From Desulfarculus sp. (GTDB lineage: Bacteria > Desulfobacterota > Desulfarculia > Desulfarculales > Desulfarculaceae), in the NCBI GenBank assembly GCA_016218705.1, contig JACRDC010000068.1, forward strand, positions 1 to 44,124: a DNA stretch of 44,124 nt, written 5' to 3'. Both the position numbers and the translations under genes were made by a program. Below are positions 41,718 to 44,124 of the stretch, piece after piece (position 1 is the stretch's first letter; each line of letters starts with the position of its first letter). The notes beneath the pieces are model-generated. The model was given only the letters and a program-made list of their open reading frames with translations, searched no databases and was not told where the DNA came from.

Positions 41718-42413
41718 ATGACGCGGGCGGACGGCAGGCAGGATGGCCAGATGCGGCCGGTGCGCATTGAGGCCGGGGTGAACCCCTACGCCGAGGGCAG
41801 CGCCCTATGCTGTTTCGGGGCCACGAGAGTGCTGTGCACCGCCAGCCTGGAAAAGGGCGCCCCGGCCTGGCTGGGGCCGGAGGCGGCCCAAGGCTGGGTC
41901 ACCGCCGAGTACGCCATGCTGCCCCGGGCCACCCACACCCGCACCAGCCGCGAGCACCGCACCGGCGGCCGCGCCCAGGAGATCAGCCGGCTCATAGGCC
42001 GGGCCTTGCGGGCAGCGGTTGACCTGCGCGAGTTGGCCGGCTACACGGTGCGCGTGGACTGCGACGTGCTGGTGGCCGACGGCGGCACCCGCACGGCGGC
42101 CATCAGCGGTGGCTGGCTGGCCCTGGCCCTGGCCCTCAAGGGCCTGGATATCAAGCCGGCCTGGCCGGTGGCGGGCCTGAGCCTGGGCAAGGTTCAGGGC
42201 CGGCTCCTGCTGGATTTGTGCTACGCCGAGGACTCGGCGGCCCAGGTGGACCTGAACCTGGTGCTGGCCCCGGGCGGGCGGCTGATCGAGGTGCAGGCCA
42301 CCGGCGAGCGGGATTTCCTCAGCCCCCGGGAGATGCAGGCCATGCTGGAGATGGGCATGCCCGCCGCCGAGCAGGTCTTCGCGGCCCAGCGGGCGGCCCT
42401 GGGGGAGAATTAG
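41718..42413 (+). CDS. rph: Ribonuclease PH
   Basis: This 231-aa phosphorolytic 3'-5' exoribonuclease trims tRNA 3' ends. It has the core motifs RPVRIEAGVNPYAEGSAL, SREHRTGGRAQEISRLIGRALRAAVD (phosphate-binding Arg residues) and DGGTRTAAISGGWLAL. AGGAGGG lies before the ATG and a consensus promoter upstream. The length is typical (~238 aa). It is the first gene of an rph-rdgB pair, a common bacterial arrangement. It is interesting that a tRNA gene with multiple 3' ends lies 740 bp downstream, but the link may be coincidental. Confidence 0.95.
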   Translation: MTRADGRQDGQMRPVRIEAGVNPYAEGSALCCFGATRVLCTASLEKGAPAWLGPEAAQGWVTAEYAMLPRATHTRTSREHRTGGRAQEISRLIGRALRAAVDLRELAGYTVRVDCDVLVADGGTRTAAISGGWLALALALKGLDIKPAWPVAGLSLGKVQGRLLLDLCYAEDSAAQVDLNLVLAPGGRLIEVQATGERDFLSPREMQAMLEMGMPAAEQVFAAQRAALGEN

Positions 42414-42416
42414 GCC

Positions 42417-43013
42417 ATGCGCCTGGTGCTGGCCAGCACCAACCCCGGCAAGCGCCGGGAGATCGAGGCCCTGCTCAATCCCCTGGGCATTGAGGTGGCC
42501 ACGGCGGCGGAGCTGGGCTTCGGCGAGGAGATCGCCGAGACCGGCGCCACCTTTGCCGAGAACGCCCAGTTGAAGGCCTGCGCCGTGGCCCGGGCCTTGA
42601 ACCTGCCGGCCCTGGCCGACGACTCGGGGCTGACCGTGCAGGCCCTGGGCGGGGCGCCGGGGGTGTTTTCGGCCCGCTACGCTGGCGGCGGCGGCGATGC
42701 GGCCAACAACGCCAAGCTGCTCAGCGAGATGGCCGGCCTGCCCCTGGAGAAGCGGGGCGCGGCCTTTGTCTGCGTGATGCTCTGCTGCCGGCCCGACGGG
42801 CTCATGCTGGTCACCCAGGGCCGGCTGGAGGGGCGCATCGCCCTGGCCGCCGACGGCGAGGGCGGCTTCGGCTATGACCCGGTCTTCGAGCTGCCAGACC
42901 AGGGACTGACCGTGGCCCGGCTCAGCACCGGGCAGAAGAACGCCATCAGCCACCGGGGCCAGGCCCTCAGGGACATGGTGGCGCAGATAGGGGAGTTTCT
43001 GCGGGAGGCCTAG
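42417..43013 (+). CDS. rdgB: RdgB/HAM1 XTP/dITP pyrophosphatase
   Basis: This 198-aa house-cleaning nucleotidase hydrolyses dITP, XTP and related purine nucleotides to monophosphates, keeping them out of DNA. The motifs are STNPGKRREI (10-20 region), ALADDSGL (catalytic Asp), GVFSARYAG, GGFGYDPVF and SHRGQAL. It starts 3 nt after the rph stop and is surely co-transcribed. The stop is followed directly by the leader of the tRNA-Pro region. Confidence 0.95.
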   Translation: MRLVLASTNPGKRREIEALLNPLGIEVATAAELGFGEEIAETGATFAENAQLKACAVARALNLPALADDSGLTVQALGGAPGVFSARYAGGGGDAANNAKLLSEMAGLPLEKRGAAFVCVMLCCRPDGLMLVTQGRLEGRIALAADGEGGFGYDPVFELPDQGLTVARLSTGQKNAISHRGQALRDMVAQIGEFLREA

Positions 43014-43032: not shown

Positions 43033-43150
43033 GCGGGCCAGGACGGCCCGCCCGGCGAGGCCCTTGGGCCGAGCCGTGGCCTTGGCCGGACTTGCTCCGG
43101 CCGAGGCCGTGGGGTGCCGAGGCAGGAGCCGAGGCACCAGGAGAAAAAGT
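43033..43150 (+). repeat. Structured spacer unit S0 (5' of tRNA-Pro)
   Basis: It has four consecutive hairpins: H1 GCGGGCC/GGCCCGC, H2 CGGC..GCCC/GGGC..GCCG, H3 GGCCGGA-cttgc-TCCGGCC inside GGCC/GGCC, and H4 GGTGCC/GGCACC. It ends CCAGGAGAAA just before the tRNA. The same order of hairpins recurs at ~43303-43420, 43495-43613 and 43688-43806 with paired base changes. Confidence 0.75.
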
Positions 43151-43227
43151 CGGGGCGTAGCGCAGCATGGTAGCGCACCTGCCTTGGGCGCAGGGGGTCG
43201 GCGGTTCAAATCCGCCCGCCCCGACCA
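43151..43227 (+). tRNA. tRNA-Pro (TGG)
   Basis: A complete 77-nt cloverleaf. The acceptor stem is CGGGGCG/CGCCCCG, the D-arm is GCGC-agcatggta-GCGC, and the anticodon stem CCTGC/GCAGG carries loop CTTGGGC (anticodon TGG). The T-arm is GGCGG-TTCAAAT-CCGCC, with discriminator A and an encoded CCA (43225-43227). The initial C and Pro anticodon are typical of bacterial tRNA-Pro. Confidence 0.95.
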
Positions 43228-43236
43228 CTAATGATA

Positions 43237-43271
43237 GAGGGGCCGGGCGAGAGCCTGGCCCCTCGGGTTTT
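43237..43271 (+). terminator. Intrinsic terminator of tRNA-Pro
   Basis: GAGGGGCCGGGC-gaga-GCCTGGCCCCTC forms a 12-position stem with one G-T wobble, followed by GGGTTTT. Near-identical terminators end each array unit (43460-43494, 43653-43687, 43847-43884). Confidence 0.8.
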
Positions 43272-43302
43272 CCGGGGCGGGAGCCGAGGCAACAGGAGCC
43301 AA

Positions 43303-43494
43303 GCGGGGCAGGAGCCCCGCCCGGCGAGGCCCTTGGCCCTCGCCGTGGCCGAGCCTGGACTTGCTCCAGGCGAGGCCGTGGGGCGGCGAGGCAGGACGCC
43401 GAGCCGCCAGGAGAAATACCGGTCGGCGGTTCAAATCCGCCCGCCCCGACCAACAGATAGAGGGGCCGGGCGAGAGCCTAGCCCCTCGTGTTTT
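43303..43494 (+). repeat. tRNA-Pro 3'-end array, unit 1
   Basis: Spacer S1 (H1 is GCGGGGC/GCCCCGC here) is followed by a perfect copy of the last 32 nt of tRNA-Pro at 43421-43452: T-arm, acceptor 3' strand, A and CCA. An intrinsic terminator follows at 43460-43494. The 5' 45 nt of the tRNA are missing. An extra ~32 bp (43272-43303) precedes it compared with later units. Confidence 0.85.
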
Positions 43495-43687
43495 GCGGGC
43501 CAGGACGGCCCGCCCGGCGAGGCCCTAGGCCCTCGCCGTGGCCGAGCCTGGACTTGCTCCAGGCGAGGCCGTGGGGCGGTGAGGCAGGACGCCGAGCCGC
43601 CAGGAGAAATACCGGTCGGCGGTTCAAATCCGCCCGCCCCGACCAACAGATAGAGGGGCCGGGCGAGAGCCTGGCCCCTCGTGTTTT
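43495..43687 (+). repeat. tRNA-Pro 3'-end array, unit 2
   Basis: Spacer S2, a perfect tRNA 3' fragment (43614-43645) and terminator (43653-43687). The offset from unit 1 is exactly 193 bp, with only a few substitutions, one of which changes a C-G pair to a T-G wobble in H4. Confidence 0.85.
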
Positions 43688-43884
43688 GCGGGCCAGGACG
43701 GCCCGCCCGGCGAGGCCCTAGGCCCTCGCCGTGGCCGAGCCTGGACTTGTTCCAGGCGAGGCCGTGGGGCGGCGAGGCAGGACGCCGAGCCGCTAGGAGA
43801 AATACCGGTCGGCGGTTCAATTCCGCCCGCCTCGACCAAACAATATAGAGGGGTCAGGCGAGTTGCCTGGCCTCTCGTGTTTTT
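43688..43884 (+). repeat. tRNA-Pro 3'-end array, unit 3
   Basis: Spacer S3, tRNA 3' fragment (43807-43838) with two substitutions (one in the T-loop, one in the acceptor strand), and a diverged terminator stem ending in TTTTT (43847-43884). The offset is again 193 bp. It is the most degenerate unit and closes the array. Confidence 0.82.
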
Positions 43885-43909: not shown

Positions 43910-44124
43910 GAAGCTTTTGCCTTCTGGCTTCAACAGGCCCCGTGTCCCGCTCCTTAGGCCGGCCATTCTTGATCGCCCGGATTGCGGCGGCGGTATTACG
44001 CATGGCCCTGGCGGCGTGAGGCCCAGCCGCGCGCAAGAACCCCAAAGACCAGGCCGCCTCGGTGGGGCCTGCGCAACGCGAGGGCGCCGTATGGCCGGGC
44101 GTGGGAGCGTGGACACAAAAAAAC
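43910..44124 (+). repeat. Diverged relative of the 366-bp element (copy D, partial)
   Basis: It shares the framework of the dispersed element, CCCCGTGTCCCGCTCC, GGCCGGCCATTCTT and, ~125 nt later, ATGGCCGGGCGTGGGAGCG, GGACACAAAAAA, but its interior is unrelated. The arms still pair: GTGTCC/GGACAC, CGCTCC/GGAGCG and CCGGCCAT/ATGGCCGG. The window ends within it. Confidence 0.6.

Follow-up and report, generated by a model that had tools for sequence, protein, structure and literature searches.

Organization of the tRNA-Pro locus

The stretch of DNA analysed here (the window) is the whole of contig C34, 44,124 nt in length, of a 4.2-Mb Desulfarculus genome (G000). Towards the contig end at position 44124, the forward strand carries rph, encoding RNase PH (41718-42413, Pfam RNase_PH), rdgB, encoding a Ham1-like NTP pyrophosphatase (42417-43013, Pfam Ham1p_like), and one intact tRNA-Pro (TGG) gene (43151-43227), which was found by both ARAGORN and Rfam. 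The tRNA gene is followed by a tandem array with a period of 193 bp (43303-43883; 3.0 copies with 95% matches in TRF), in which the 3'-terminal 32 nt of tRNA-Pro recur behind a hairpin-rich spacer, designated element E, and are followed by a terminator. The order of the locus is rdgB, a first copy of E (E0), tRNA-Pro, its terminator, a partial E, and three units of E, tRNA end and terminator. Three near-exact copies of a 193-bp repeat are well past chance.

All parts of the array lie on the forward strand. E0 (43033-43150) directly precedes the intact tRNA and scores 111 bits with a covariance model of E (R1). The gene-attached duplicated end, r0 (43196-43271), consists of the 32 nt at the 3' end of the tRNA gene itself and the terminator and was delimited by direct repeats; behind it lies the partial E (43272-43302), which contains only hairpin 4 and the tail (repeat family D5, 89% identical to 43117-43143). 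Three complete spacers follow, E1 (43303-43420, 97.8 bits), E2 (43495-43613, 100.2 bits) and E3 (43688-43806, 99.9 bits), each with its own end copy: r1 (43421-43494) with an exact tRNA end at 43421-43452 and r2 (43614-43687) with an exact one at 43614-43645, both delineated by repeat comparison and r2 also by the terminator scan, and r3 (43807-43880), whose tRNA end has two substitutions. Behind every tRNA-Pro end copy stands a hairpin that resembles a terminator and has a T-rich tail (two pass the consensus scan), and the 5' 45 nt of the tRNA are missing from all three copies behind the gene. The original prediction, made from the letters of the window alone, had described the tandem tRNA ends, their positions and period, the perfect match of the first two, the terminator of each and the absent 5' part, and all of this is borne out; the copy of E upstream of the tRNA had not been recorded. 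The prediction had also remarked that RNase PH is encoded just upstream: rph is indeed there, simply as part of a gene order, rph-rdgB-tRNA-Pro, that is also found in the sister species.

The tRNA-Pro locus in related genomes

The array is not limited to a single assembly. It is also present in the sister species G003 (a Desulfarculus sp. MAG), in an independent assembly, where rph, rdgB, E and tRNA-Pro come first and E-containing units with three or more tRNA ends lie behind them, spread over two contigs. The two species have diverged modestly (dS of about 0.19-0.23 for rph and rdgB). In G002, of the same genus, the rdgB stop codon abuts tRNA-Pro, and neither E nor end copies are present; E0 is thus missing between the two genes. 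A search of 63 genomes of the class found clustered copies of the tRNA end with its terminator in G000 and G003 only, and a spacer-pattern scan of a sequence collection gave, within this lineage, only records of G003 and, elsewhere, scattered single matches in other phyla.

In both species the array ends in orthologous DNA, which in G003 is preceded by additional repeats: the array of the window stops at 43880, and the DNA from 43881 to the contig end at 44124 aligns with G003 L036:1160-1402 (local score of 144, where shuffled sequences reach 18 at most). The outermost copy r3, which abuts this native downstream DNA, is probably the displaced native end of tRNA-Pro, judging from its position, this being a locus without a close E-free relative to prove r3 native. 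Behind the array of G003, an extra tandem duplication of about 375 bp (L036:530-1100) was noted that is missing at the G000 locus.

An assembly artefact is hardly credible as the source of the array, because the sister species carries the same one: the locus does lie near a contig end and the G003 contig breaks inside the array, but the two independent assemblies contain different copies, and comparable structures at other loci lie inside contigs.

Structure and abundance of element E

Element E is a non-coding sequence of about 112-127 bp that forms four hairpins, with loops of AGGA(C/T), variable, YTYRC-like and AGGA sequence, giving two AGGA-loop hairpins per element. Its right end is fixed and sharp, nearly all joints reading CC immediately before r1, with a conserved tail of about GGAGNAATAGCC, while its left end is ragged (hairpin 1 lies 0-79 nt behind r0). 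In an alignment of 12 spacers from six loci, which includes copies from shared lineages, 97% of the cells in the stems are paired and 9 of 17 pairs have changed on both sides, a result reached by none of 500 shuffles; the AGGA(C/T) and YTYRC loops and the tail GGAGNAATAGCC are conserved while the stems covary. Within 1.45 Mb of the genome of the window, the covariance model R1 recovered nine strong copies, distributed over five loci; a further strong copy lies on contig C1, and weaker relatives with ATGGAC loops were also found. About 2.17 of the 4.2 Mb of this genome were read in all. Of the hairpin core GGCCAGGACGGCC there are 29 copies in the genome, against one for a reversed control, and all six genomes of the genus show enrichment for it.

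Other hairpin-rich repeats were seen in the same genome. A MITE-like family with five hairpins (TAATACCAAGTTGCGATCAAAC ... GCGGGCCATGGACGGCCCGC ... GCAATCAAAGCCATGGATGGCTTTGATTGC) has copies scattered over the genome in either orientation (L058:9450-9610, L065:18390-18580, L183:16400-16570 and others). A family of the form GGTGCCC...CATAACGGGTCG...GGCTCCCG begins at or behind stop codons, often in tandem (L188:1508-1887, L203:19497-19822, L204:4254-4455, and L176 after rny), and short tandem arrays of one 99-bp hairpin-rich unit are found at three separate intergenic sites (L050:9179-9484, L154:4261-4446 and L200:1-191). The hairpin repeat GGGCGGGG-(A)TAAA-CCCCGCCC is very abundant, at G000:C16:14281-14369 and some 80 other places, and most members of the genus have tens of copies each.

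Gene-end copies flanking E

Across four species of the genus, eight genes have E enclosed by two copies of one of their ends. Apart from tRNA-Pro with its terminator (G000 and G003), these are the genes for a LuxR-type response regulator (G000 and G003), mreB (G000, G003 and G002), gatB (G003), a pyrK-like DHODB Fe-S subunit (contig C54), a second DHODB-type subunit (contig C1, with a shorter flanking repeat of about 20 nt), rny for RNase Y (G001 and G003), and murC (G001), at which the duplicated sequence is the 5' end and E is antisense. The gene body lies to the left of E in all eight genes. Direct repeats of 42-106 nt flank 13 of the 16 strong E matches examined, and such repeats were found at none of ten matches of the related ATGGAC-loop families. 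Three copies of E have no flanking repeat: those upstream of tRNA-Pro and of tRNA-Ser, and the outer copy at the response regulator. When 1045 predicted genes and 29 tRNAs were surveyed, only mreB, tRNA-Pro and the response regulator showed exact 3'-end repeats, a count that is a lower bound because the more diverged pair on C54 was missed. The tRNA is not special, and the tRNA-Pro array is one case of E lying between gene-end copies.

At tRNA-Ser, E is present upstream in G000 and absent at the G003 gene. Directly 3' of this tRNA-Ser (CGA) gene in G000 (L006:900-1300, G000:C74) lies an ORF that by eye resembles an integrase N-terminus.

Insertion or duplication

In the following, r0 denotes the copy attached to the gene and r1 or r2 the copies behind it. 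The gatB locus is arranged in G003 as r0-E-r1-E-r2 and in G000 is free of E. The outermost copy r2 and everything downstream of it match the E-free gatB of G000, while r0 and r1 represent another allele. Since the outermost copy and its downstream DNA are the native end in the sister species, E and a gene end were inserted. Over the in-frame pairs of r0 and outer copy, 27 codon differences are synonymous and 4 nonsynonymous, where a synonymous share of about 0.25 would be expected without constraint (P of about 4e-13, a count that pools loci not fully independent and possibly of common history). Because the differences between r0 and r1 are mostly synonymous, both copies must have evolved as working gene ends, which would place the divergence of r0 and r1 in separate strains or lineages. 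The arrangement of end copies at mreB is common to three species and E itself to four, with E absent in G004 and G005. Here r0 and r1 carry each other's species-specific changes, so that gene conversion or repeated formation is needed to account for them.

These observations bear directly on a reading in which nothing mobile is involved, in which hairpin DNA would stall replication, the polymerase would slip back as far as the end of the gene, and local amplification of the block would follow, with the tRNA end as a passive passenger. Arrays of intergenic hairpins are common in the genome (about 11 in 1.45 Mb), microhomology of 1-3 nt is seen at several E/r1 joints, and the response-regulator array of G000 ends in E, as plain duplication predicts. 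The gatB locus speaks against such local duplication, with its E-free counterpart in the sister species and an outermost copy that is the native end; coding-type differences between r0 and r1 are not expected of a duplicated non-coding fragment, and one and the same E recurs at eight genes. We regard local tandem duplication as unlikely, while still giving it appreciable weight. A variant in which the full tRNA unit was duplicated in tandem and 45 nt were then deleted was set aside because unrelated genes have an identical E tail in front of r1.

Origin of the array

We consider it likely that E belongs to the non-autonomous interspersed elements, that gene ends are duplicated as it spreads, and that it was multiplied in tandem at tRNA-Pro. 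This reading builds on direct observations, namely the E family with its covarying stems, the gene-end copies at eight genes, the displaced native end at gatB and the differences of coding type between r0 and r1. The order is a gene-attached end copy r0, then E, then a displaced second copy r1, and the gene keeps a complete end. E would arrive by insertion or template switch, its fixed right end rejoining the target inside the gene, at a distance of between 20 and about 170 bp. Alleles bearing E may then have spread among strains through homologous recombination, and r0 and r1 would for that reason be different alleles. At tRNA-Pro, unequal exchange between copies could have given the threefold unit of end and E, which agrees with the satellite that the original prediction had offered as one of its readings, and no effect on the function of tRNA-Pro would be required.

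A functional small RNA of the kind found at tyrT/rtT of E. coli, with units co-transcribed with the tRNA that would act in trans or decoy the enzymes processing tRNA 3' ends, appears improbable. The layout is as in tyrT/rtT, every unit has its own terminator, and the 32-nt tRNA end is perfect in four of six copies from two species, against differences of about 8-13% between the spacers. Gene conversion can maintain tRNA identity equally, however, and the folding of the 32-nt end, taken with its immediate context, is not unusually good (z of -1.2). The decoy idea, which had been part of the original prediction, loses further force because most loci of E are protein genes, with E antisense at murC.

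It is also quite improbable that E acts as a CsrA/RsmA-binding RNA, either as a CsrB-like sponge or as a 3'-UTR element. A csrA gene is present in the genome, the loops of hairpins 1 and 4 have the form C-AGGA(C/T)-G, which resembles the repeats of CsrB, and these loops are conserved while the stems covary. Related dispersed families with GGA loops, however, occur in both orientations relative to genes, and E is antisense at murC; both facts are more in keeping with mobile DNA than with a signal in a 3'-UTR. A role of GGA-loop hairpins in general as 3'-UTR signals was rejected on the same lack of orientation bias in the related families.

The 3' ends of tRNAs and other genes are classic targets of elements with tyrosine recombinases, and the original prediction had accordingly raised a stack of attachment-site remnants, comparable to the tandem scars of CIMEs. 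Part of this stands in outline: the gene is reconstituted, the units are in tandem, the native end of gatB has been displaced, and the differences between r0 and r1 are mostly synonymous. Classical integrase sites, already disfavoured, are very unlikely, since a single element is found at eight unrelated target genes, the duplications range in length between about 20 and more than 90 nt, a 5' end is among the targets, and no integrase was seen beside the array nor any recombinase in a Pfam scan of nine neighbouring ORFs of the window and G003.

Returning to E as an interspersed element, we tentatively propose a further step, that E may represent an undescribed class of insertion element with one fixed end, which makes or carries a spare gene-end copy at each insertion and leaves essential genes (mreB, gatB, rny, murC and tRNA-Pro) intact, rtT possibly being the convergent product of a like process. 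To our knowledge, the tandem tRNA 3' ends at tyrT/rtT have so far been a solitary enterobacterial curiosity. A layout of this type is now seen in another phylum, where neighbouring species give the states before and after, and at the protein-gene loci the codon positions serve as a clock showing that both copies were working gene ends. With E at the ends of protein genes and with the before and after states at hand, the origin of such arrays therefore becomes testable. The findings suggest a general route by which tiny elements could settle harmlessly in essential genes.

Comparison with known systems

The original prediction knew of no described element with this layout, a claim that does not stand: the layout is not without precedent, because the tyrT/tyrV locus of E. 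coli has 178-bp tandem units behind an intact tRNA, each hairpin-rich and with an exact tRNA-Tyr 3' end, and gives four strong matches to Rfam RF00391 (RtT). Both systems thus consist of tandem units behind a tRNA, each with a tRNA 3' end. They are unrelated in sequence, the array here containing tRNA-Pro and rtT tRNA-Tyr, and E, unlike rtT, is also found between end copies of protein genes. RF00391 had no match in the window at the gathering threshold or up to an E-value of 5, and sub-threshold Rfam matches (BjrC68 and others) were rejected as chance, their consensus not being a tRNA end. According to PMC4986893, which cites Bosl and Kersten (1991), rtT is processed out of the tRNA transcript; rtT-like sequences are part of interspersed mosaic elements (PMC2965389), and rtT varies in length among Salmonella serovars as a 175-bp VNTR (PMC2658671).

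E is like repeats of the REP/BIME/MITE type in being short, non-coding, intergenic, multi-hairpin, lineage-specific and dispersed. This class includes the GTAG REPs with their RAYT transposases and the RU/ERIC elements. E differs in being flanked by gene-end copies of 20-106 nt and not by a short MITE-type target-site duplication, and neither a terminal inverted repeat nor a GTAG-type tag was seen in it. As a candidate for an enzyme that moves E, or for a cognate Y1 transposase such as REPs have in RAYT, only a degraded, broken Y1_Tnp fragment and no intact RAYT was found in the genome.

With CsrB-like sponge RNAs, E shares the possession of several GGA-loop hairpins, two with AGGA loops in each copy. 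With CIMEs and integrative elements, it shares a carried-in copy that rebuilds the gene end, a native end that is pushed outward, and accretion in tandem; reconstitution and displacement are seen at gatB in the comparison of G003 with G000 and would hold at tRNA-Pro as well. E differs from CIMEs in having no recombinase nearby, a unit of only about 200 bp, many unrelated targets and no common att core. No description of E was found in the openly licensed literature. The layout is thus already known for a tRNA; what would be new, as far as found, is this family of sequences, its host group and its occurrence at the ends of protein genes.
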